IMG/VR virus record: IMGVR_UViG_3300021171_000030
Span: 1-35,969 of that record
Direction: 5' to 3' (one strand)
Source: a virus
DNA: 35,969 nt
The notes under the pieces are model-generated. The model saw only the letters and a program-made list of their open reading frames with translations. It was not told the DNA's origin and searched no databases. Every line of letters starts with the position of its first letter. The stretch's first letter is position 1. The position numbers and the translations under genes are program-made. This document shows positions 1-35,759 of this stretch, one piece after another.

Positions 1-1081
1 TAGAAATTTCTGTTACATCGTATCCTTGACCTTGAACAACTATTCCATTTCCTTGCTGATCTTCCATCATAAAGAAAACTAGAACGTCCATAGTAGCTAT
101 TGAATAAATAGCTGAGCAACCATGATTAATATAAGCTCCTTGTTGCTCTTGAAATGTAAAATCTGCAGCTCCTGTATCAATCCAAACTTCAGTAGTCAGA
201 GCACCTATTAACCAAAGTTCTCTGTGTATTACGGCTAATCCTATAATAGGATCACTAAAACCAGATTTAGCTGCAATATCTAATGGGTCAAAAGCACTAT
301 TTGTGGCATTTACGGTATAAGTAAATCCTGCTCCTGTCCCTCCAATACTAGCTGCTGGAGCTGTTAGAATATCACCTATAAGATAATTTTTACCTGAAGT
401 AGCTATATCAACTGCTGTTACAGCTCCTCCTGTTACTGTTATATCTGCCGTAGCTCCTATACCATTACCACCAGTTAAAGCTACATTATTATAAACAGCA
501 TTTGTATAAGCTGCTCCTCCAACTATAGCACCACCGCTAATACCACTATTGGTAAACATACCAAAATCAGCATTAGAAGCTGATATAAAGAATTGATCTG
601 TTCCTGATCTATTAAAGATAGAAAATGTATCTAGTAAACTAACATAATCAGCAGGATAGAAATTAGGATCATTGATAAATCCTATCTGATTAGTAGCTAA
701 ATCTATAACATATCCATTTTCTCCATCACATAATACAGCAACAATACCATTATCACTAAAATAAACTTGACTTGGAAGATTAGCTATTGCTCCTAAGAAT
801 ATTAAATTAGCGGTTGGTGTTAAAAAATAAACATTTTGGCCAACTACTACAAATGCAGTTCCTGCACTTGTTCTATAAGTAGCTCTTACTTCTCCTACAA
901 AATTAGGAGGAGTAGAGTAAATAGTTGAGCCGGGAGTAGGATAATAAGTAGTAGTAGATGGTGCTTGTGGATCAAGAGTAGCATTTATTTCAGCATACAA
1001 GTTTACGCATTCCTGTCCAGAAGCAATCTTACTTTTGCCAGCATAAGGAGTACTAATTAATTGTACTCTTTTTAATGGCAT
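1..1081 (-). CDS. P22 gp10-like packaged-DNA stabilisation / tail-hub protein (partial, C-terminus off the left edge)
   Basis: The ATG at 1081 opens a frame that runs without a stop to position 1, giving the first 360 residues. The N-terminus (GKSKIASGQECVNLYAEINA, residues 15-34) and the later HRELWLIG, TEVWIDTGAADF and INHGCSA motifs are typical of the P22 gp10 family, which plugs the portal channel after packaging and forms the tail hub above the tailspikes. P22 gp10 is about 470 aa, so roughly a quarter is missing here. Residues about 180-258 look like an inserted beta-rich module: they interrupt the family's usual run into the DPLD motif and are nearly copied in the next gene upstream (gp4-like). 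The start overlaps nothing and lies 3 bases after the stop of the gp4-like gene, so the two are co-transcribed. Family call is confident; the insert is seen directly. Confidence 0.85.
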   Translation of the reverse strand, partial: MPLKRVQLISTPYAGKSKIASGQECVNLYAEINATLDPQAPSTTTYYPTPGSTIYSTPPNFVGEVRATYRTSAGTAFVVVGQNVYFLTPTANLIFLGAIANLPSQVYFSDNGIVAVLCDGENGYVIDLATNQIGFINDPNFYPADYVSLLDTFSIFNRSGTDQFFISASNADFGMFTNSGISGGAIVGGAAYTNAVYNNVALTGGNGIGATADITVTGGAVTAVDIATSGKNYLIGDILTAPAASIGGTGAGFTYTVNATNSAFDPLDIAAKSGFSDPIIGLAVIHRELWLIGALTTEVWIDTGAADFTFQEQQGAYINHGCSAIYSIATMDVLVFFMMEDQQGNGIVVQGQGYDVTEIS

Positions 1082-1084
1082 TAC

Positions 1085-2071
1085 TTATCTCGCATCAGCA
1101 TTGAAAATGTAGAAGGAATTATTGTTATTGAACCTTAGTGCTGGTGGCATCTTGAGTTGAGGTACTTGAATATTAGCCATACGCAAAACATTTAATGCAG
1201 CTCTAGCTAATTTAGTCTGCTCCATATTAACAGGATATTGATACATGCTGGTTAGGCGTCTACATAGATTGTAATGAATAGCTTCTTCATATTCTTCTGG
1301 CATATTAAAAACAGCGTCTAGACTATCAGTAACTTGTGTGACAGTCCAAATAAAACCATTTCCAGTACCACCAATTAAAGCTGGATTTACTGTTAATTCA
1401 TCTCCAATATCATAACCATCACCAGCATTATCTAAAACTACTCCTGTTACAGTATTTCCAGCAACTGTTATAGTAGCTGTAGCTCCAGAACCATAACCAG
1501 TTAAATCTGTGAAAGCTACATTATTATAAACACCATTAGTATAAAGAGCACCACCAGCAGTTATATTTCCAGCTTCAATCTCAATTGTAAATCCAATTGG
1601 TCCTTTAAGAACTAAATGAATTTCATAGGTAGCATCTGGTATCGGCCAAATGTAAACATTCCCATTAGGAAATTTACCATCATAAAAAAAGAATTGTGGC
1701 CAAGAAGCTAATCCTTTTAATTGCACCAAAGCGTAATCCTCATAGCTCCAAATAGGAGATAGAGGAAAACTAACTATCGTGCTAGGACCACTACCAGCAT
1801 TTAATTGTTTAAAATAAGCAGCTTGAATTTTATCAGGTCTAGCAGCATTATAATATTGACCGGGACCAATTGGATTAGATACATTCCCATTACCATTAGC
1901 CTGAATTTCATAAAGATTTGGTACTAACCATCTTTTCTTTTGCCATGCTGCAAGCATACGATGTAGAATTGTAAAACCATCATTAACATCTTCAGCAAGC
2001 AAAGTTTGACCGACGCCTAACACGCCAGCTTCACGCATTGCGAGTGTAATAAAATCGCGTGCAGTACTCAC
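1085..2071 (-). CDS. P22 gp4-like head-completion / DNA stabilisation protein
   Basis: 328 aa. The first 50 residues (ARDFITLAMREAGVLG, then DGFTILHRMLAAWQKKRWLV) match the pattern of the gp4 (P22 tail accessory factor) family, which binds the portal first after packaging and seats gp10. The C-terminal part (MPEEYEEAIHYNLCRRL, residues 257-273) is also family-like. Residues about 171-247 are an insertion rich in G, T and V, starting GGALYTNGVYNNVAFTD, that is closely similar to an insert in the neighbouring gp10-like protein. P22 gp4 is 166 aa; related phage proteins are about 200-250 aa, so the insert explains much of the extra length. The start codon is GTG, immediately after the upstream stop, with GGGG seven bases before it. 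Confidence 0.85.
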   Translation of the reverse strand: MSTARDFITLAMREAGVLGVGQTLLAEDVNDGFTILHRMLAAWQKKRWLVPNLYEIQANGNGNVSNPIGPGQYYNAARPDKIQAAYFKQLNAGSGPSTIVSFPLSPIWSYEDYALVQLKGLASWPQFFFYDGKFPNGNVYIWPIPDATYEIHLVLKGPIGFTIEIEAGNITAGGALYTNGVYNNVAFTDLTGYGSGATATITVAGNTVTGVVLDNAGDGYDIGDELTVNPALIGGTGNGFIWTVTQVTDSLDAVFNMPEEYEEAIHYNLCRRLTSMYQYPVNMEQTKLARAALNVLRMANIQVPQLKMPPALRFNNNNSFYIFNADAR

Positions 2072-2583: not shown

Positions 2584-3828
2584 TCATATCTTATCGCAAA
2601 CACAAACCAACCACTCTGGCCTAATATACTTAAATCCAAATAGTACGTCAACGCGAGTAGCTAACTGATCAGTCAAAGGAAGATAATCAGTTAAAATACG
2701 CATTGATACGCCATCATAATTAGTGCGTGCCGCTTCCTCAACAGCTTTCCTTGGCATAACCAAGTCAGCAGTTGCCATCGTAATAGCCTTTTGCGTGTAA
2801 GCAAGAGACTTACGATAGACAGAGCTAGCAGGAGTAACCAAGACAATAGCAGCACCATTAATAGGAGAACTATCAACAGTCTGATATTGAACTTGAGGAC
2901 CACCAGCAAGGAAGTTTGAAGGAGGGATTAGACCGGGGTAAACCGGAATAGCAAGAGCGCCAGCAGCAACATCAGCAGTCACAACAAATTGCCGCAAGGT
3001 AGCAAGGCTATTCTTGGTCAAACGATTAATAGCATTGACATTAGCAAAAGTGATAATATCACCTTTCTTCAAGGTGCCAGTATCAGCATTGATAACAATG
3101 TTACCACCACCAGTACCAGTAAATTGATTACCACCATTTACAGTACCAGTGCCAGCCCATGAACCTGAAGTATGATTAATCACAGTCTGATCACGGAACC
3201 AACGTCCATAACCAAGACCTGATTTCATTTTACCACTACGGAATTGAGCTGAGATTTCAGGAGTTGGATTAAGCAATCCCTGAAGTGCGGTAGTAGCTCT
3301 TGCATCAGTAGTAGGAGAATTGACAATACGCCTATCATCATCAATAGCACCATTGTCGTCAAGGATAGCATTTGCTTGCAAGAATTGATCAGAGATAGGA
3401 GAGATAATATTTCCAGCTCCATCAGTATTTGCAACCAAGTTACAAACACCACCTTCTGCACCAGCCATAATAGTACCAGCAACTTGCGCACAAAGGTTAT
3501 TGACAATCGGAGCCATAACAAGCTCCGAAAAACGATCAATACTCATAGTACGTTCTGCTGTGGTGTAAGGAGTAGCTACGTTCAACTGTGTAGAAACAGT
3601 TAACGTAGTAAACTGTTGAGTGTTATCCTGAAGCTGCATAGCAGGACCAGAATTAACAATAAAATCAGAAGGCAATCTGATACGCAGAGTATCGCCAATC
3701 TTGGCACCATCTACTGCAAATTGATCATCATATTGCCTATCCATATTCATAATAAAAAGATTACTATTAATGAAAAGCATTACTGCTTCATTAGTAATCA
3801 TGTCCACAGTGAGGTAAGTATTTGCCAT
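2584..3828 (-). CDS. major capsid protein, P22 coat (gp5) type
   Basis: 414 aa from the ATG at 3828 (MANTYLTVDMITNEAVMLF), chosen because a GGGAG site sits nine bases upstream; the open frame extends 29 codons further but those look non-coding. The N-terminus, the GDTLRIRLPSDF segment, the ELVMAPIVNNL helix, and the end (RVDVLFGFKYIRPEWLV) fit P22-type coat proteins (P22 gp5 is 430 aa), HK97-fold shells with an extra insertion domain. It is flanked by the scaffold gene upstream and by hairpins on both sides. A 34-residue piece of its C-terminus has a diverged copy in a small gene at 5492-5734. Confidence in role is high from order and sequence. Confidence 0.9.
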   Translation of the reverse strand: MANTYLTVDMITNEAVMLFINSNLFIMNMDRQYDDQFAVDGAKIGDTLRIRLPSDFIVNSGPAMQLQDNTQQFTTLTVSTQLNVATPYTTAERTMSIDRFSELVMAPIVNNLCAQVAGTIMAGAEGGVCNLVANTDGAGNIISPISDQFLQANAILDDNGAIDDDRRIVNSPTTDARATTALQGLLNPTPEISAQFRSGKMKSGLGYGRWFRDQTVINHTSGSWAGTGTVNGGNQFTGTGGGNIVINADTGTLKKGDIITFANVNAINRLTKNSLATLRQFVVTADVAAGALAIPVYPGLIPPSNFLAGGPQVQYQTVDSSPINGAAIVLVTPASSVYRKSLAYTQKAITMATADLVMPRKAVEEAARTNYDGVSMRILTDYLPLTDQLATRVDVLFGFKYIRPEWLVCVCDKI

Positions 3829-4025
3829 TTCTAAAAGCTCCCGCGCAAAAAGCGCAATTTTAAAATTGATTGTGATGAATATGCAGGGCTTGAGGCTGCA
3901 ATATTTAACAAGCAATCAATGGCCATACCGGACCAAGGCGGGAACTAGAAAGCATGGTTTATCAAGCGAACCAAGAAACGCTATATAGAATATCAGTATT
4001 TTAAAAATTTAGAATTGTAAATAGA
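3829..4025 (-). promoter_or_regulatory. coat gene 5' leader with two small palindromes
   Basis: About 200 bases without a gene between scaffold and coat. It contains a perfect 14-bp palindrome CAATTTTAAAATTG (3855-3868) and a short GCGC-AAAAA-GCGC hairpin (3843-3855) just upstream of the coat ribosome site, suggesting a structured mRNA leader that could affect translation or stability. I could not identify a convincing -35/-10 pair, so a dedicated late promoter is only possible. Confidence 0.35.
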
Positions 4026-6394: not shown

Positions 6395-6549
6395 TTCTTT
6401 TTCTTCTTCTTTGCTTGCCTCTGCTCTGAATATGCTACAGCTAATGCTTGTACTCTTGATTGCACATGAGGAGACTTGCCAACTTCCTTCATTAGTGCCT
6501 CAACATTCATACGTAATGCTTTCTTGGAAGCTGATTTAATCAGTGGCAT
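6391..6549 (-). CDS. small Lys-rich phage protein (52 aa)
   Basis: Reads MPLIKSASKKALRMNVEALM, continues through QALAVAYSEQRQ and ends in a run of lysines. Small proteins starting MPLIKS-SKKA and ending AIAYS-KR-AKKK are common in podovirus head operons, although their function is unknown. Start overlaps the upstream stop as TAATG and the end overlaps the next gene by 4 bases, so it is clearly translated in the operon despite its size. Confidence 0.75.
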   Translation of the reverse strand: MPLIKSASKKALRMNVEALMKEVGKSPHVQSRVQALAVAYSEQRQAKKKKKK

Positions 6550-9122
6550 TACTTATTCTCCTCAAATGGATCACCTGAAACAGGAGTAAACATATATTTT
6601 CCTGAGAAAAGTGGAAAGCCTTTTAATAGAGCTTTATCTTTTAAAGATTGAGGAAGTTCTATGTAGTGAACAGGCTTACCAGCATTAACTTTTTCTAATA
6701 TTTTATTACGTTGACTAAGAGATAATTCATTAAATGATTTTTGCGATAATCCTCTATTTTTAAGTTCTTCTTCTAAAGAACGTCCAATTTTACCAGAGTT
6801 ATAATGCACCTTCTCTCCAGTAATCTTTTCTAATGCTTTAGGTATGATTTGATCATAGAAACCTTTCATACCTTCACCACCTACTTTAAGATTTTCTCCA
6901 TCTAAATATTGCAATCCTTTAATATCGCTTTTACTTTCTAATAACTTTTTAGCAGCTTCCTTACCAATATAATCAGCTAACTTTTCTTTAGGTACATTCT
7001 CTTCATGTAAAACAGTATTATCATTTTTCTTAGCTTGTAATGTTCCTTTATCACTATAAGAAATATGATCTACTTGCTTACTCAAATCATATCTAGCCGC
7101 TTGTGCTTCTCCGGGTGTCCAACTAAGCCTATCGTAACCCTTTTCAGCAGCTTCCCTAATCATTCGCTTTAATGCTAATGAAGTCCAAGCTTCTGTTTTT
7201 TTGAATGGAGCGTTAGGAACAGCTCTGCCAGCACTTTCAAATTTATTTAATCTATCATTAGCTTCATTAAAAGCAGCTAAATAATCAGCTTTATTAGGCT
7301 TATTTAATTGATGAGCTACAATTGAAGCTTTCTCTTTGTCTATAACTTCTTGTAATAACTTTTCTCTTTCAGGAGCATACCCCTTCTCCCTCCCCTGCTG
7401 ATGCCAATCCGATTGAATTTCTTCTAGGTGTAATGATTTCTTACCTTCAATATTCCTATCATTCATTCTGATATGAGCTAATACATTAGGTTCATCCCAA
7501 TGAGAGGATTTGTAAGAATTAGATTGATAAGGATGCTGCTGATGAAACCTAGCGATAGCTTGTTCTTCAGTTGATCCACTTGAGTATCTACCTTCCCCCG
7601 GCCCAAATACTTCATAGCGCTGATGACCATTCAACATTGATGGTTCAATTCTATAACCAGATGGAAGCTTTGTAGTGTCTACTTTACTAGGCAACGTCAA
7701 AAGCATTTCCCTATAATTACTTGCTCCCGGTAGCTGATAAGAATGATATTTAGTTCCACCTTCTCCACTACCTAAATTATAATCACCTTCAGTAGACCTA
7801 AGTTTATAATAATCTTGAACAGCATCCCAATCAGGATTTCTAGAAGTATGTTGATCTGGAAAATGTTCTCTAAAATCATTAGCAACTCTATCTTGCTGAG
7901 CTGGAGTTAAATCTTTCCAATCTTTAGTACCTTTATTAACTTCCTTTAACTCCACCTTATTATTTTGTAAATGCTGCTGCACTTCTTCCTTAGTAACTAT
8001 ATCCTTACTTTTTTCTTTCAGGAAATCCTTCAATCCAGTCCAATCCATTTCTTCAGGCTTCACTCCCGGCTTATTAGCGAGTGTACCTAACCATTGATCA
8101 CCAGTCATTTTTGCTTGTGGAATAGCATTAACATTATGCTCTACTGCTGAATAGAAAGGTTGTCCTATCTTAGCCATAGCTTCTATTGCAGTTCCCAGTT
8201 TAGAGCTATCAGCGAGCAATGTAGACGTTAATGCTCCATACTTGCCTGCATGTTGATCAATCAATCCTTCCTTAATTGCATAATCCAAAGCTTTTTCTCT
8301 ATCCAAGAATTGCCCCTTGTGGTTCATGAAACCAAAATTAAAATTAGAAATATCTTCACCACTCATAGCTTGCTTATGGAATTCATCAGCTAAGTGAGCT
8401 GGTAAAGCATCTAAGTGTTCACCACCAGCAGGAGCTTTATATATTTTATCGCCATACTTCAAAGCTGGCCTGAGAAATGGTGCAGAGCCTAATGTACCTT
8501 CAGCTCCAGCAGTTAATCCACCAGCCCCACCTAATGATGCCATATCCAAGGTACGACTAATAACTTCTGGATTAGCTATAGTCTCACCTGTATTAGGATC
8601 AGTAATGAATGTAGGCAAGTTACCACTAGCAGCTTCAGGTAATGCTGATAAAGCACTTCTAACAACTTTCTCAGGCCAGAGCTGATAACGCTCCTCGCCA
8701 CTTAAATTTCCTTGCCAAGGTTGACCAGTTTTACCCGGAACAGAACCTCCACTAGCTTGAGCTATCCCTAACTTATCAAAAGCATTCTTTAAAAGTTCTG
8801 GATTATTAACTATATTCTTAGGTAAATTCAAAACATCACTAGTAAATTTCTGATCAAAATCAGAAACACTTTTAGCTCCAGCTTTTAAATTATTATAAAT
8901 ATCAGATAATCTACTCATAAATTGATCAGTCCCCGGTAATCCACCATCAGTAAGGGTACTTTGTGGCGGAATTGGTTCGGGTCTATTATCCTCTAATCTA
9001 GGTTCCCCTTCTTGGCTCATATTCATAATCAAACGCTTGGGAAGAGGTGTATAAATAGGTTCAACCGGCATTATATTGTCCGGCTGTTGATAAGCATCAG
9101 TTAATTGAGCAAGGCTAGGCAA
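6549..9122 (-). CDS. large polyvalent-type phage protein, candidate ejected/virion protein
   Basis: 857 aa. The N-terminal 120 residues are proline-rich and low in structure; the C-terminal half carries motifs that I associate with the phage large polyvalent proteins: SLHLEEIQSDWHQQGREKGY (563-582), EAWTSLALKRMIREAAEKGY (644-663), DRLSWTPGEAQAARYDL (664-680) and VHYIELPQSLKDKALLKGFP (818-837). Such proteins are thought to be delivered with the DNA and to act in the host early in infection. No homologues of the P22 ejection proteins gp7, gp16 or gp20 are visible in the window, so this may fill that slot. The frame begins with TTG at 9122, overlapping the upstream stop by 8 bases; the next ATG (9071) has no ribosome site, so TTG is preferred but not certain. 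Confidence 0.65.
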   Translation of the reverse strand: MPSLAQLTDAYQQPDNIMPVEPIYTPLPKRLIMNMSQEGEPRLEDNRPEPIPPQSTLTDGGLPGTDQFMSRLSDIYNNLKAGAKSVSDFDQKFTSDVLNLPKNIVNNPELLKNAFDKLGIAQASGGSVPGKTGQPWQGNLSGEERYQLWPEKVVRSALSALPEAASGNLPTFITDPNTGETIANPEVISRTLDMASLGGAGGLTAGAEGTLGSAPFLRPALKYGDKIYKAPAGGEHLDALPAHLADEFHKQAMSGEDISNFNFGFMNHKGQFLDREKALDYAIKEGLIDQHAGKYGALTSTLLADSSKLGTAIEAMAKIGQPFYSAVEHNVNAIPQAKMTGDQWLGTLANKPGVKPEEMDWTGLKDFLKEKSKDIVTKEEVQQHLQNNKVELKEVNKGTKDWKDLTPAQQDRVANDFREHFPDQHTSRNPDWDAVQDYYKLRSTEGDYNLGSGEGGTKYHSYQLPGASNYREMLLTLPSKVDTTKLPSGYRIEPSMLNGHQRYEVFGPGEGRYSSGSTEEQAIARFHQQHPYQSNSYKSSHWDEPNVLAHIRMNDRNIEGKKSLHLEEIQSDWHQQGREKGYAPEREKLLQEVIDKEKASIVAHQLNKPNKADYLAAFNEANDRLNKFESAGRAVPNAPFKKTEAWTSLALKRMIREAAEKGYDRLSWTPGEAQAARYDLSKQVDHISYSDKGTLQAKKNDNTVLHEENVPKEKLADYIGKEAAKKLLESKSDIKGLQYLDGENLKVGGEGMKGFYDQIIPKALEKITGEKVHYNSGKIGRSLEEELKNRGLSQKSFNELSLSQRNKILEKVNAGKPVHYIELPQSLKDKALLKGFPLFSGKYMFTPVSGDPFEENK

Positions 9123-9327: not shown

Positions 9328-9794
9328 TATTCAGCCTGTTGTACCTGTAACCATTGTCCATTAGTATTTTGAACATAATGATTACCATCAGGAGCTAATT
9401 GGCTACCCGGAACATCTGGTATACTTGGTAATTGTAATTTATTATTGGGTTCTACTTTATTAAAATAATCCTGCAAATCTTGAGGTTGAAAATTTTGTAA
9501 ATTAGTAGCTCCCGGTTGAAATGTATAGCTACCGTCTTGCTGCTGTTGCCAATTACCACCTTGATTACCATTACCGTTATATTGACTTTGATTAGAAAAA
9601 GTAGGGTGATTTGGTTTTTTAAAAGTATCTGGGTAATGAACACCAGCAGCATTAGGATTAGAGTTAGGATTAGCTTTATACCATCCCTGCATATCATAAT
9701 CATAACTATCAGAAGGCTTAAATTTAGTATTATAGTCAGCCTGCTCTTGAGCATTTAATGGAGTATTATATTGATTAGTTAGATCAGGTTCCAT
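9327..9794 (-). CDS. Gln/Asn-rich portal-associated protein with PDTFKKPNHPTFS motif
   Basis: 155 aa. Contains YDMQGWYKAN (33-42) followed by HYPDTFKKPNHPTFSNQSQY (53-72), a signature common in uncharacterised proteins located next to podovirus portals. The rest is unusually rich in Q and N (five consecutive Q's in WQQQQDG region and NGNGNQGG), with little hydrophobic core, so it is probably extended or disordered. The start overlaps the portal gene by 11 bases. Likely a virion-associated or portal-assembly factor. Confidence 0.7.
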   Translation of the reverse strand: MEPDLTNQYNTPLNAQEQADYNTKFKPSDSYDYDMQGWYKANPNSNPNAAGVHYPDTFKKPNHPTFSNQSQYNGNGNQGGNWQQQQDGSYTFQPGATNLQNFQPQDLQDYFNKVEPNNKLQLPSIPDVPGSQLAPDGNHYVQNTNGQWLQVQQAE

Positions 9795-12153
9795 TAGCTT
9801 GTCTCCATTGATTATGAGCTTTCATATTCAAGGAAGGACTAGGTAAGCTATCCTGACCTTGTTCTGATGCCTCTCCAGCCTCATTAGAAGGCTGCTCAAG
9901 AGAGTTTATAGAAGTGCCACCTTCATGTGGCCCCGGTAAATTAATCAACTCCCCACCGTTCTTTAGAGCTTCCATGACCACTTGCTTAACAAGCGGCTGT
10001 ATCTGCTCTACCGAAATGGCAGGACCAGAGTTCCCCAAAGCTGTAATTCGCTTACTAATACTATCAAAATCAGCTCTAATCTCTTGAATAGCTTCAATAG
10101 TAGCTTCATTACCAGCCATAGCTTCTTTTAAAGTCATATCACGTTCTTTAACAGTTAATTCCCTATTCTTATCATCAAGCTCCTTTTGCTGCTTAGCAAT
10201 AATAGCTAACTGCTGTTCAATCTTATCAGCAGCTTGATGCATCATTTGCTCCTGTTGTGGATTAGGAGCATCACCAAGAATATTTGGCGGAATAATCTTA
10301 CGCCAACGTCTAGCAAGTTCTTGAGCTTCAGGAAAGTCTGCAACTTTCCAAAGAAGATCGCCACCAATATTCATAAATTCTTTATTTTGAGCTGCAATTT
10401 GAGTTAATGCATTAAAAGCTTCTTGCCTTCTAGTTGCAAAACTTGGTCCTGTATCAGATTGAACATCATATGTACCCATATTAGGATTAAATATGACGTG
10501 TACTATCTGCTGCTGATTATCCATTTCAGGTTGGTTATTTTGATCAGGAGGAAGCTTAGTAAATGGAGCTTCTGCATTAGGATCAATCGTCACATTCATA
10601 ATTGTACCATCTTTAGCTTCAATTCTAATGATACGTTGTGTATCATAAACCTTTGGAATAAGGTCTATTAAAATTTTACCTGTCCTTCTGATAGCAATGG
10701 CTTGATTATCAATGAAATGATAAGTTGCTCTATCGCCTTGTCTTTGTCTAGCATTAATAGCTACGCCTGATTTAGCATTTTCATTTTCTCCCATCTGGGC
10801 TTGATATTGACCAGATACCATCATCATTTCTTCTTGAGCAATCTTCATTTGCTCTACATAAGCTGGCGATGCTGCTGGTGGAGCAGGTCTTTGTGGTGGA
10901 GGAATTGGATTTCCTTCATCATCAACATGGTTCCAAGGCAAAAATGAATGATTGGTTGTATTAGCTGTTCGCCAATATTCTTCATATCCCTCAATTGCCT
11001 GACCGGGAGCAAGCCAAGGTACTTTAGTTTGGAGTGCTCCAAATTCAACGTTGGCCGAACTATTCACATTATATATTCGCTGTGGGTCTAAAAGTGCTCT
11101 AGTATGTCCCTTACAATCCCAAATACCATCAATGACTGTTTCAGTACCAACCAACCTAACAATTGGTACAGTTTCACCAAGCCAAGGAGCACGATCAATA
11201 ATAACATTCCCAGCTATCTTAAACCATTCTACATTATTTTTTGTAACCTTTCGTTCCTTATAAGAGCGTTCACTTTCTTTTAAACCTTTTTCTTGTTTCT
11301 TTATTTCATTAAAAATATCTTTAGCTTCTTGTGGTAAATCACTCATATATGCTACAATCTGCTCTCCAGTTGTAGGCATATTAAAACCAACTAATGTTTC
11401 TTTCTTTTGTGATACTCTATAATATTCAGCAACTCTAATAGTATCCTTCTGATACCAACCATCAGACATATTATTAAATACTATAGCTCCTCCAACATCT
11501 TGAAATTCAGGATTTTCAGCTTGATACAAATCCTTTGGAATATTGTCATAAATGAAACCCCATTTAGCATCTGATCCATCTACTTCATTTATGTAAGGAT
11601 CAAGATAAACATTTCTAGGGTCTTTAATTCTTCTGATATAGATTTCATGATCAAATGACATAGAGCTTATTGGTTCTACCATAATTCTCCAATAACCCCA
11701 ACCAGCATTAATTTGAAACACAGAAGCATTATCATAAACATTTTCAGCACTTGAAATATATTCAATATGTCTAACTACTTCCTGAAATACTTGAGCTGCT
11801 TCAAAGCTAGCTGTATCTCCAACAGGTCTAATGTTTACTCCCGGTTTATTCTGCTTCCCATCATTTATAATTTGAAGATTATGTTGTTGAGTTTTATTAA
11901 TTGTTAAACAAGGTCTATTATTTACGATCCTATCTCCAACTACCCAATTATCCCATTGAAACATATTATTGCTATCAGCATTAGCAAATTTTAAATCATA
12001 CTCAAAAAATATTCTAGCTTGAGCTTCCCATTTCTGAGCAATCTCAAAACGCTTCTTAGCTTCTTTAATAATTTCTACATCTTCCTCAGACTGAGGATTA
12101 GGAGCATCAAAGTTAGTAGACCAAGCCATTTTAAAGTGATCCCATCCATCCAC
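9784..12153 (-). CDS. portal protein, P22 type
   Basis: 789 aa (P22 gp1 is 725). The region NRPCLTINKTQQHNLQIIND, VGDTASFEAAQVFQEVVRHI, GWGYWRIMVEP and IKDPRNVYLDPYINEVDGSD matches the core of the P22 portal family; the protein forms the dodecameric vertex ring through which DNA is packaged and ejected. After residue 620 there is a long charged coiled coil (KIEQQLAIIAKQQKELDDKN and on), corresponding to the stem/barrel helices, and then a flexible low-complexity end. The start overlaps the large terminase gene by 23 bases, so packaging ATPase and portal are coupled. Confidence 0.92.
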   Translation of the reverse strand: MDGWDHFKMAWSTNFDAPNPQSEEDVEIIKEAKKRFEIAQKWEAQARIFFEYDLKFANADSNNMFQWDNWVVGDRIVNNRPCLTINKTQQHNLQIINDGKQNKPGVNIRPVGDTASFEAAQVFQEVVRHIEYISSAENVYDNASVFQINAGWGYWRIMVEPISSMSFDHEIYIRRIKDPRNVYLDPYINEVDGSDAKWGFIYDNIPKDLYQAENPEFQDVGGAIVFNNMSDGWYQKDTIRVAEYYRVSQKKETLVGFNMPTTGEQIVAYMSDLPQEAKDIFNEIKKQEKGLKESERSYKERKVTKNNVEWFKIAGNVIIDRAPWLGETVPIVRLVGTETVIDGIWDCKGHTRALLDPQRIYNVNSSANVEFGALQTKVPWLAPGQAIEGYEEYWRTANTTNHSFLPWNHVDDEGNPIPPPQRPAPPAASPAYVEQMKIAQEEMMMVSGQYQAQMGENENAKSGVAINARQRQGDRATYHFIDNQAIAIRRTGKILIDLIPKVYDTQRIIRIEAKDGTIMNVTIDPNAEAPFTKLPPDQNNQPEMDNQQQIVHVIFNPNMGTYDVQSDTGPSFATRRQEAFNALTQIAAQNKEFMNIGGDLLWKVADFPEAQELARRWRKIIPPNILGDAPNPQQEQMMHQAADKIEQQLAIIAKQQKELDDKNRELTVKERDMTLKEAMAGNEATIEAIQEIRADFDSISKRITALGNSGPAISVEQIQPLVKQVVMEALKNGGELINLPGPHEGGTSINSLEQPSNEAGEASEQGQDSLPSPSLNMKAHNQWRQANGT

Positions 12154-25482: not shown

Positions 25483-26298
25483 TCAATAATCAATCTTCTC
25501 CATCAAATCAGCCCATTCATCCTCAGTAAATGAGATAGTAACCATATTCTCAGTATCATCAACACGCTCTGTTGAATAGGCAATAGCTACCAGCTCTTTC
25601 AAATATGCTTTCAAGGATTGCCCCTTTGGAGCTTTTTCAGAACCATTCTCAGTATCCTTTGGCATAGCTCGCTTGCGGCCTTGCTTCTCAGCTATGACAA
25701 CGGCTCCATTCAATTCAGCAACAGTCAAAGCTACATCTTCATTATGCTTCTTATAGCAAGTAAGCACCATACCAGCAGAAGCCTTACCTTCAGCGATAAA
25801 CTTCTGAAGCACTACTGGCAAGCGAAGCAAATCAAGCAACTGACTAACGCGACCACCAGACATACCAGCCTTGGCTGCAATGTCCTTCTGTGCCCATCCA
25901 AGATCAATTAAACGCTTAAAGACCTTGGCTTGCTCAATACCAGTAAGAGGCTTACCTTGATTGTGAACAATCTGGCTAAAAATCCTATCAGCTTCGTTAG
26001 CATGACGGTCCTCAACCATTACCGGGACAGTCTTGATTTCCATCCCTTCCTTGATAAGCTGTTGAACAGCAATCAATCGGCAATGCCCATCAGACACATA
26101 AACAATATCATTCTCTTGATAACAAATCAAAGGCTTCTTAACACCAATCTCTTTAATTGAAGCCTTTAACCCCGCAATATGTTCTGTATTAGCAGGATCA
26201 TCGCTATCCCGACTATTCCAATCAGGCTTGATTTGAATAATAGCCGGGTCTACCCGATACAAATCCGAACGTCCATTTGCAATATCTTTTATGGCCAT
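25483..26298 (-). CDS. ParB/Srx-fold DNA-binding protein
   Basis: 271 aa from the ATG at 26298; the GGAG nine bases upstream lies inside the codons of an alternative first ATG (26313), which itself lacks a ribosome site. The ParB-type N-terminal domain has NSRDSDDPANTEHIAGLKAS, PLICY, then VSDGHCRLIAVQQL in the place of the usual GERR/GHRR box, followed by a helix-turn-helix (GWAQKDIAAKAGMSGGRVSQ). No ParA partner is visible. In phages such lone ParB-like proteins act as regulators, nucleases or CTP-dependent clamps. Preceded by a TTGACA-N17-TAATGA promoter and followed by a hairpin, so it looks monocistronic and well expressed. Confidence 0.8.
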   Translation of the reverse strand: MAIKDIANGRSDLYRVDPAIIQIKPDWNSRDSDDPANTEHIAGLKASIKEIGVKKPLICYQENDIVYVSDGHCRLIAVQQLIKEGMEIKTVPVMVEDRHANEADRIFSQIVHNQGKPLTGIEQAKVFKRLIDLGWAQKDIAAKAGMSGGRVSQLLDLLRLPVVLQKFIAEGKASAGMVLTCYKKHNEDVALTVAELNGAVVIAEKQGRKRAMPKDTENGSEKAPKGQSLKAYLKELVAIAYSTERVDDTENMVTISFTEDEWADLMEKIDY

Positions 26299-26330
26299 TT
26301 TCTTATTCTCCATTTGTTATGACACATTAA

Positions 26331-33185: not shown

Positions 33186-33494
33186 ATGATATTTATTCAT
33201 AGAAAAGCTCGCATTCAAAGGCAACTAACAATAAAAGATAAATATGTAAAGCCTAAACCTAAAGAAGTATTGCTTATAAAAGATGATCAAATTGGACGTT
33301 GCGCAATTTGTGAATGTGAATTTCCAAAGGATACAAAACATATTCATGTTGATCATTGTCATAAAACTAATATAATAAGAGGATTTCTTTGCGCAAGTTG
33401 TAATAAAGGACTTGGTTTCTTTAAAGATGATGTTAGAATTTTAGAAAGAGCTATCTCATATTTAAAGCTAGAATATTTTAATCAATTAGTCTAA
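33186..33494 (+). CDS. recombination endonuclease VII-like HNH resolvase
   Basis: 102 aa, the only plus-strand gene. CAICECEFP, then HIHVDHCHKTNIIRGFLCAS, CNKGLGFFKDD and a C-terminal helix match the endonuclease VII (T4 gp49) core: two C-x-x-C zinc knuckles flanking D-H-C-H catalytic residues and N-x-x-(L/I)-G. T4 endonuclease VII cuts branched DNA and helps packaging. Length is close to the short phage versions (about 100-150 aa). GAAGGA lies about nine bases before the ATG. Its last 9 bases overlap the tail of the convergent replication gene, with no terminator between. Confidence 0.85.
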   Translation: MIFIHRKARIQRQLTIKDKYVKPKPKEVLLIKDDQIGRCAICECEFPKDTKHIHVDHCHKTNIIRGFLCASCNKGLGFFKDDVRILERAISYLKLEYFNQLV

Positions 33495-35759
33495 AATACT
33501 CAAATCCTTTACTATAAAACAACGTTGTGAAGTTCCATACTTTTCATTACACCAAATCTTACCTAATTCAGAAACTCTATCGCTATCAACTAAATTCTGA
33601 ATTGTACGTTTAATTGCAATTGTAGCTCCAGCTTTATCATGCTGAAATGCTGTTAATGGAGTAAGCCTTTTATTTAAATAAATATATGGAATTACTTTAT
33701 CGTTATGCATTTTTTCAGATTTAAATTGAAGATACTTCTCAATTCTATTATATGGAAAGCTAATGTAATCTCTAATCATTCTAATAATTTCATTTGCTTG
33801 CTTAACTTCAAAACTATTACTACCAATTTCACCAGCCTCAAAACGTTCTGTTAACGCAGCTATATCACGATGAATTAAATTTATAGCCCAATCTACATAA
33901 CTAGGAATAATTACAGGATTAATCATATTCTCGCCAACAGCAACCAATGCTGATAATTTAAGTACCTTAATGTGTGCTCTATTCCAAAGTTGACGGATAA
34001 CTTCTTTATTAGCACTATTAATGAAATTATCTGAATACTTATCAAAATCGTGAAGAAGCGTAGCAGCATCTTGTGTCTTTTGCACATTGATAACTCTCCT
34101 TGGATTAGAATGATTAACAGTTTCACATTGCGCGGCCAATGCTGCTAGCTTTTCAATAACACTAAAGCTTGGTATAACTTCAGTATGATGCTCATTCAAG
34201 GAGGGGCGATTACCTTTGTATTCAATCAACAGGAAACGCGGTAATAATCCTTCGCTAATCATATCCTCGTTCAATGTTCCATAAAATCTTTCTGGTGTAC
34301 TTTCTCCCAAGATACTGAAAGACGGTGATGGTATAGCAGATGTATTATTAGCTTTGTCTGAATAAACTGAGGCATGTAATATTTCAGTATGACCTGATTT
34401 ATTATACAAATCCAAAAACATACGTCTAAGACTAACTTCCGAACCATTAGCATTTGGACTGCTCATTTGTTGAAGGCGTAAGCCAAATTCACCTAATAGA
34501 CTAATAAATGATTGCGATGTATTACCAAGATATTTAAATAAAGCTGCTCCAGAACTAATTTCAGATGGGCCAATAAAAAAGCTTGAGGTGGGAACCTGCA
34601 TCTTGATAGTTCCCATTAGCTTATTGATACCTGAAGCTGCTGCTTCCTTTCCAGCTCCAGTCATGGCTAGGAGCAGCACATATTGATTTAAACCAGTCCC
34701 TGATACATTGTAGGCACGTCCGGTAATGCCAGCCATCAAAGCTATGGAGGCTGCTAAAGCTACTTCTGGAACAGGGCGAGGCGCAGCAGCATAAATGAAA
34801 CTAGCTATTTCTCCTAATAAGCCGGGAGGCATCTGAATAGTTGAATTGACTAATGGTATATCTACTATTGAACCATTAACTTTAGCTAATTTATCAGATA
34901 ATGCATTTTTCATTCCATCAAAGTCTATTGGTGGAAGCATTCGGTCAAATGACCGTGTAATCATCCCATCAAGATAATCTTTGCGTTTGGCTTTATCTCG
35001 CTTACCCAAGGCTGACGATTGAAATAGCCGTTGAATTTGATTTCTATTTTGCGTGTAAAAAGCAAGCATATCAACATATGCAAGGTCAGCTTCAGATTGA
35101 GACTGGTATAAACCTTGCCATTCTCCCCTATGTAGCAACAAGAACTTATCGCCATTGACGGCACTGGTAGCTTTTCTAATAATTTCTTCATCTGTTCCAT
35201 AATCCTTATCATCTCCTTGAATTAATGGAGGAGGTACTGTACCTCCCATTTGTTCCCACAATTGAGTAAGCAGAGATTGCCGCTCATTAATAATTAATTT
35301 ACCACCATAAACATTACCTGTCATGGTAGCATAACGTTTTGAGCTGTAAATTTCTATCTTGCTTCTACGCCTCCCTGCTGATACATTACCTTTGATAATA
35401 AGATGCAGCCCCATTCCAGAAGGACTAACTTCAGAATAGCTATCAAATTCATTGTATATTTTTAATTGTCGCTGAAGTATTGTGTCATCACCTTCAGCAT
35501 CATCTAAGTCAATGAATGTATAAGGATCATTGTTAGTGAATACAAAGCCAAGGCCACTATAATTTCCAGATGAAAGTATATTAAGACAGTCAGTAAAGCT
35601 AGACCAATGCGCCGGATCAGTGACACTTGCTTTCCACCCATTATATTGATAAGGTGTTTTTGTAAGTTTCTTGGCACCAACATCCTCATATCTCCATACT
35701 ATCCATTGTTTTAATGCGCGCAGCTCTCCCGGTACATTATTGTACAGATTATTAGACAT
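33486..35759 (-). CDS. primase-polymerase / DUF3987-type helicase replication protein
   Basis: 757 aa. Residues 1-170 look like an archaeo-eukaryotic primase (PrimPol) domain: WIVWRYE, TFIDLDDAEG (catalytic acidic pair), SEVSPSGMGLHLIIKG and KIEIYSSKRYATMTGNVY. A middle region (HRGEWQGLYQSQSEADLAYV, RDKAKRKDYLDGMI) is like the helical linker of phage PrimPol proteins such as that of NrS-1. The C-terminal part has AMTGAGKEAA (Walker A) and the helicase-like layout of DUF3987 proteins. It probably primes and unwinds, or copies, phage DNA, since no family A/B polymerase is visible here. Stop overlaps the resolvase gene. Confidence 0.8.
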   Translation of the reverse strand: MSNNLYNNVPGELRALKQWIVWRYEDVGAKKLTKTPYQYNGWKASVTDPAHWSSFTDCLNILSSGNYSGLGFVFTNNDPYTFIDLDDAEGDDTILQRQLKIYNEFDSYSEVSPSGMGLHLIIKGNVSAGRRRSKIEIYSSKRYATMTGNVYGGKLIINERQSLLTQLWEQMGGTVPPPLIQGDDKDYGTDEEIIRKATSAVNGDKFLLLHRGEWQGLYQSQSEADLAYVDMLAFYTQNRNQIQRLFQSSALGKRDKAKRKDYLDGMITRSFDRMLPPIDFDGMKNALSDKLAKVNGSIVDIPLVNSTIQMPPGLLGEIASFIYAAAPRPVPEVALAASIALMAGITGRAYNVSGTGLNQYVLLLAMTGAGKEAAASGINKLMGTIKMQVPTSSFFIGPSEISSGAALFKYLGNTSQSFISLLGEFGLRLQQMSSPNANGSEVSLRRMFLDLYNKSGHTEILHASVYSDKANNTSAIPSPSFSILGESTPERFYGTLNEDMISEGLLPRFLLIEYKGNRPSLNEHHTEVIPSFSVIEKLAALAAQCETVNHSNPRRVINVQKTQDAATLLHDFDKYSDNFINSANKEVIRQLWNRAHIKVLKLSALVAVGENMINPVIIPSYVDWAINLIHRDIAALTERFEAGEIGSNSFEVKQANEIIRMIRDYISFPYNRIEKYLQFKSEKMHNDKVIPYIYLNKRLTPLTAFQHDKAGATIAIKRTIQNLVDSDRVSELGKIWCNEKYGTSQRCFIVKDLSILD

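Follow-up and report, generated by a model that had tools for sequence, protein, structure and literature searches.

A beta-rich module inserted in two adjacent neck proteins of a P22-type phage is optional, mobile and probably a decorating domain

Why should two neighbouring and otherwise unrelated head-completion proteins of a short-tailed phage carry the same beta-rich module, and how did each come by it? The question is raised by a 35,969-base viral record (IMGVR_UViG_3300021171_000030, positions 1-35,969), the whole of which was analyzed and is called the window here; coordinates given without a contig name are window positions. Family searches identified P22-type head genes in the window, namely coat, portal and terminase. 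The coat protein (2584-3915, minus strand; PF11651, E = 4.9e-36) is given here as the listed ORF, the real start of which is probably 3' of the TTG. The portal protein is encoded at 9784-12153, also on the minus strand (PF16510, E = 1.7e-139).

The first of the two module-bearing proteins, encoded at 2-1081 (minus strand), is a gp10-like packaged-DNA stabilisation or tail hub protein (head closure Hc3) of the beta-propeller type (phrog_578, E = 1e-39). The window edge truncates it to 360 of 567 residues; the full 567 amino acids are present in the identical L003 and L041. Profile comparisons with solved gp10 proteins gave E values of 2e-15 for Pan3, 1.4e-14 for Pam1 and 2.8e-9 for P22, and an AlphaFold2 model of the hub (pLDDT 84) matched Pan3 and P22 gp10 in Foldseek with TM-scores, for the target, of 0.85 and 0.82. 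Both the sequence profiles and the beta-propeller fold place the window hub in the P22 gp10 (Hc3) family. The solved hubs of P22, Pam1 and Pan3 share this fold (TM 0.82-0.85) but, unlike the window hub, they lack the module.

The second protein, a gp4-like head-tail adaptor (Ad3) of 328 residues, is encoded at 1085-2071 on the minus strand. Its C-terminal part matches phrog_637 (E = 6e-10), and a profile match to Sf6 gp7 (E = 1.6e-4) is likewise confined to the C-terminal part. The adaptor model (pLDDT 79) found its best folds among the adaptors of cyanophage A4, SU10 and Pa223, and strands predicted at residues 53-156 correspond to an extra, SU10/T7-like beta domain between the helical parts. 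In SU10 and T7 this adaptor domain docks the long tail fibres, whereas P22 and Sf6 adaptors are without it (PMC9509320). The window adaptor thus has a helical core like that of P22 gp4 and Sf6 gp7 together with a beta domain like that of SU10/T7-type adaptors. Because this domain is absent from P22 gp4 and Sf6 gp7, we regard the protein as a relative intermediate to the SU10 type rather than a plain gp4; the predicted strands and the SU10-type best folds set it apart from P22/Sf6-type adaptors, which have no fibre-dock beta domain. The initial annotation had described the flanks of the module as continuous gp10 and gp4 families, and the phrog_578 and phrog_637 assignments, with the profile and Foldseek matches, agree with this. 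The gp4 label itself is right as to family but not as to type, since the window protein is larger than P22 gp4 and resembles adaptors of the SU10/T7 type, with their extra beta domain.

Module copy 1 lies at 296-541 (minus strand; hub residues 181-262) and copy 2 at 1322-1579 (minus strand; adaptor residues 165-250). A shared module had been reported at hub residues of about 180-258 and adaptor residues of about 171-247; it is present and in frame at both places, and its length can now be refined to about 82-86 residues. Aligned on their own, the copies show 60% identity across 72 columns (E = 1e-19). Their local alignment score of 193 lies 148 above the mean of 2000 shuffles (mean 45, sd 8, maximum 81), which rules out a chance similarity due to low complexity. 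Once the modules are taken out, the hub and the adaptor score 28 against a shuffle mean of 33, no better than shuffled sequence, in keeping with the proposal that they are otherwise unlike. Searched in all six frames, the full record of 35,969 bases yielded exactly these two copies. An assembly artefact is ruled out by L003 and L004, independent contigs of other metagenomes that carry both proteins at 100% identity.

Read from the whole-protein models, the module is predicted to consist of six strands and a short helix. In copy 1, where pLDDT is 79-92 (AlphaFold2), the predicted strands are at residues 181-188, 195-201, 211-217, 220-228 and 238-240, followed by a helix at 243-246 and a strand at 254-260. 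In copy 2 they are at 164-172, 180-189, 198-204, 207-215 and 225-228, with the helix at 230-233 and the last strand at 241-248. The models thus predict the same order of elements in both, with the short helix set between the fifth and the sixth strand. The hub blade is predicted to have strands at 144-150, 153-158 and 163-167 and then at 264-271, and the module breaks the hairpin joining the third and fourth of these. In the adaptor, the module is predicted to stand between the final strand of the dock-like beta domain and the helix with which the helical core resumes.

The module was thought at the outset to have been added to each host, and relatives with an empty site, which exist for both proteins, bear this out. 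An alignment of 36 distinct gp10 sequences has a clean gap at the module site. The empty allele reads ...YTLLTTTG followed by AFDPLDIAAK..., and the filled allele ...YGMLTNSA, the module and then AFDPLDIAAK.... The gp10 site is empty in 15 of 27 relatives, the gap falling exactly at the site of copy 1. For gp4, an empty site was found in L033, L085 and Pseudomonas phage PAE2; the homologues from L033 and PAE2, which are 54% and 42% identical to the window adaptor, show the gap opposite copy 2. PAE2 has the gene order of the window, and both of its genes (238 and 473 residues) are without the module. Among 39 distinct phages with both genes, 14 carry the module in both, 21 in gp4 only, one (L085) in gp10 only and three in neither, carriers being somewhat over-sampled in this set because one of the six contig-search patterns falls within the module. 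The adaptor copy is accordingly present in 35 of the 39.

The gp10 copy comes and goes. On a backbone tree of 27 phages, from which the modules were removed, its state changes at least 6 times (8 by parsimony); sister pairs are often unlike in gp10 state, and a topology that unites all carriers in one clade is rejected (p-AU 1e-48). The association between this state and the flanking sequence reaches no further than about 10 residues from the junction. In some gp10 proteins the copies are multiplied: L009 has about two, L072 about three and L090 four. The hub copies in L090 (4519-6996) and L072 (4329-6287) are tandem or nested, a copy-number expansion at one loop.

Searches with the module alone had been suggested, and their outcome was divided. 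Pfam has no model that matches either copy, Ig-like models included, NCBIfam has none that matches either host protein, and none of the carbohydrate-binding families in the two databases matches the module. No PDB chain matched the module profile significantly, nor did any of the solved adaptor chains compared with it. No published name for the module was found in the literature searched, which covered few subscription papers. The scan of viral contigs, by contrast, yielded at least 445 confirmed relatives; its query was a gp10-centred module alignment, a mixed gp4 and gp10 alignment being too variable, and the copies in the phage collection were recovered with whole-protein queries. Among the matches listed are a family of SU10-type adaptors (PF24175, E = 6e-18) and virion proteins of phrog_3287, in which the module occupies residues 109-184, 309-384, 157-234 or 510-583. 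Contractile sheaths that carry at least two copies are also among them, as is one major tail protein. In annotated cyanophage records the module occurs in gp7 baseplate proteins and in further virion proteins. Four siblings of the window phage have a third copy in a tail fibre or spike gene beyond the ejection genes; these carriers have the collar domain PF07484, and one has a beta-helix. When the adaptor model was compared with BFVD, short and tight matches were obtained (87-95 columns, rmsd 1.6-2.4 A, 31-39% identity), fibre-type proteins included, which we infer to be matches of module to module in the predicted structures.

The family extends beyond phages. A 3,297-residue protein of Mucilaginibacter (L145:3-9896) has a CHU_C/T9SS sorting domain and eight copies of the module; its Ig-like Pfam matches fall outside these copies. 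A module that is optional and mobile, that is found in many virion proteins and in fibres, and that is arrayed in tandem in a secreted bacterial protein shows the pattern of a decoration domain. The proposal of an added, mobile and decorating domain is supported by the empty sites, by the toggling in gp10 and by the recurrence in many virion proteins. Giant proteins with seven or eight copies are encoded in both L145 and L147 (2658-10172; Mucilaginibacter). Several of their copies pair by position in a tree of modules, so that the arrays look old and stable.

What such a domain does at the neck is a matter of weighing alternatives. On balance we lean towards the explanation that the loop-inserted copies decorate the exterior of the particle, the likely purpose being weak, multivalent adhesion to the host. 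Each of the two neck proteins of this short-tailed P22-type phage bears, in a loop of its conserved fold, one copy of what would be a self-folding beta-rich domain. The domain belongs to a large family whose members occupy loops of phage virion proteins of many kinds, in the style of Ig-like domains. By homology, the adaptor copy would adjoin the beta domain that docks the tail fibres in SU10 and T7, and the hub copy would sit in a propeller blade, at its outer hairpin. In SU10 the dock domain is peripheral, and the blade far from the axis has a fibre-dock loop at its edge (PMC9509320), which suggests that both copies are exposed on the outside. They would then face outward in rings of about 12 and 6 copies. 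This homology favours projection of the modules outward from the neck; the adaptor site could instead be turned towards the portal or towards the hub. By adhering weakly and at many points to the host surface, probably to its glycans, the modules would help the short tail to reach its receptor, and we infer that the module has a role in host binding.

Second to adhesion we place a cementing or docking role, in which the modules would bind neighbouring parts of the virion and stabilise the neck or help to seat fibres or spikes. We consider this rather doubtful as the general explanation. The adaptor copy does adjoin the SU10/T7-like dock domain, its presence in nearly all of the phages is what a structural need predicts, and for the extra domains of sheath proteins a stabilising role has been proposed besides adhesion (PMC9230969). 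The nearly fixed gp4 copy thus suggests a structural role at that site. Nevertheless, homologous adaptors do without the module in PAE2 and L033, and also in L085, the gp10 copy toggles freely, and the diversity of the carriers argues against any single partner surface.

A near-neutral passenger, tolerated by virion loops, spread by illegitimate recombination and of no important function, would account for the repeated gain and loss in gp10, for the variation in gp10 copy number (1, about 2, about 3 or 4) and for the varying insertion sites in phrog_3287. A passenger would not be expected to conserve many Gly, Tyr, Asp and Val positions among copies that are otherwise about 45% identical, to persist as the gp4 copy in nearly the whole clade, or to keep the reading frame in every case, and we regard this explanation as improbable. 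Near the bottom of the ranking comes an interlock, suggested in the initial annotation, in which the two copies would pair and so lock the adaptor and hub rings together. The hosts do form adjacent rings in P22, and 14 phages have the module in both. We consider an interlock very unlikely because either protein can carry the module alone, as 22 of the phages with both genes show (21 gp4-only and one gp10-only), three more having neither; moreover, the gp4 and gp10 copies of one phage do not vary in step, and further copies are found at a distance from the neck, in sheaths and fibres.

The two copies had also been attributed to gene conversion between the two genes. Conversion would make copies in the same phage more alike than copies in different phages. 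In ten distinct phages, the mean identity of gp4 to gp10 modules is 0.460 within phages and 0.453 between them (p = 0.23), and in a larger set that includes near-duplicates it is 0.462 and 0.463 (p = 0.58), so that these comparisons give no support to upkeep of the copies by conversion. A tree of 92 modules places 22 of the 23 gp4 copies in one group (SH-aLRT 88) and has the gp10 copies scattered among modules of other proteins; this tree, built on a short alignment, is poorly resolved and does not reject a joint gp4 and gp10 clade. The window copies do share an identical tract of 21 nucleotides, which has a chance of about 0.007 given the proteins and exceeds the expectation from codon usage, but a longer identical word, of 25 nucleotides, is common to the window gp4 module and the gp10 of a different phage, L008. 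That intragenomic gene conversion made and maintains the two copies is thus the least probable of the explanations, although an occasional short exchange between gp4 and gp10 modules is possible. As to the gp4 insertion, SU10-type adaptor carriers have the module after a similar strand, with the motif P-x-P-x-x-x-Y-x-h-x-L. Without the module, the window-type and SU10-type adaptor backbones show no significant alignment (hhalign E = 0.11). We considered both a site shared by descent with the SU10-type carriers and a parallel insertion.

The promiscuous behaviour of decoration domains is already known. Phage Ig-like domains are also small, beta-rich, optional and horizontally mobile, according to Fraser et al. 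(2006) as cited in PMC9230969 and PMC6949934, and on the same account they occur promiscuously among unrelated virion proteins with a proposed role in weak adhesion to the host surface; the ligands proposed are surface carbohydrates (PMC9230969). The module shares their optionality and their promiscuity among unrelated virion proteins. It differs in having no Ig-like Pfam match and in its position in loops of two adjacent neck proteins. In 936 lactococcal phages, carbohydrate-binding modules (CBMs) occur in the neck passage structure, the major tail protein and Dit, and two of these have been shown to bind the host (PMC6669499). They too are optional domains of neck and tail proteins, but they are recognised folds, and those at the neck are on collar fibres, whereas the present module is unnamed and is carried by core head-completion rings. 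BACON repeats of crAss-like phages are also single or tandem beta-domains common to phages and Bacteroidota surface proteins (PMC6949934); no match to BACON (PF13004) was found in the modules or in the tandem protein L145, and no sequence relation between the two was found.

What appears to be new is a family unnamed in Pfam and NCBIfam, its insertion in loops of two core proteins that adjoin each other at the neck, and the frequency with which it is gained and lost at these sites. More tentatively, the module may be an unnamed, virosphere-wide adhesion domain that can be plugged into loops of almost every ring of the virion (adaptor, hub, sheath, tail tube, baseplate or fibre) and that also occurs in tandem in secreted Bacteroidota proteins. 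If so, phages would tune their affinity for the host surface through copies of the module at tolerant loops of the core machinery, and not through fibres alone. Head-completion proteins are usually seen as mere conserved plumbing. Among the close relatives compared here, however, one or both of them may have or lack an optional domain that is cleanly inserted in frame, and the presence or absence of the module is a natural experiment on what such decorations do. The results also point to a sizeable family of domains, as yet missing from Pfam and NCBIfam, that is common in virion proteins of cyanophages and environmental phages.

Several other genes of the window and its relatives were noted. 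An 857-residue protein encoded at 6549-9122 (minus strand) is endolysin-like at residues 537-734 (phrog_7348); its gene is near the portal gene and has no obvious lysis cassette around it. A ParB-like protein (25483-26313, minus strand; PF17762, E = 1.3e-7; PF02195, E = 0.003) is encoded alongside the P22-type head genes. The 757-residue product of 33486-35759 (minus strand) has a domain similar to the HBD of the NrS-1 polymerase (PF22763, E = 5e-8) and is probably a replication protein of the primase-polymerase type. In the sibling phage G001, an aspartyl/asparaginyl beta-hydroxylase-like protein (L158:11722-12300, minus strand; PF05118, E = 1.2e-11) is encoded inside the virion gene block, with gp10 on one side and the ejection genes on the other, and may possibly modify some virion protein.
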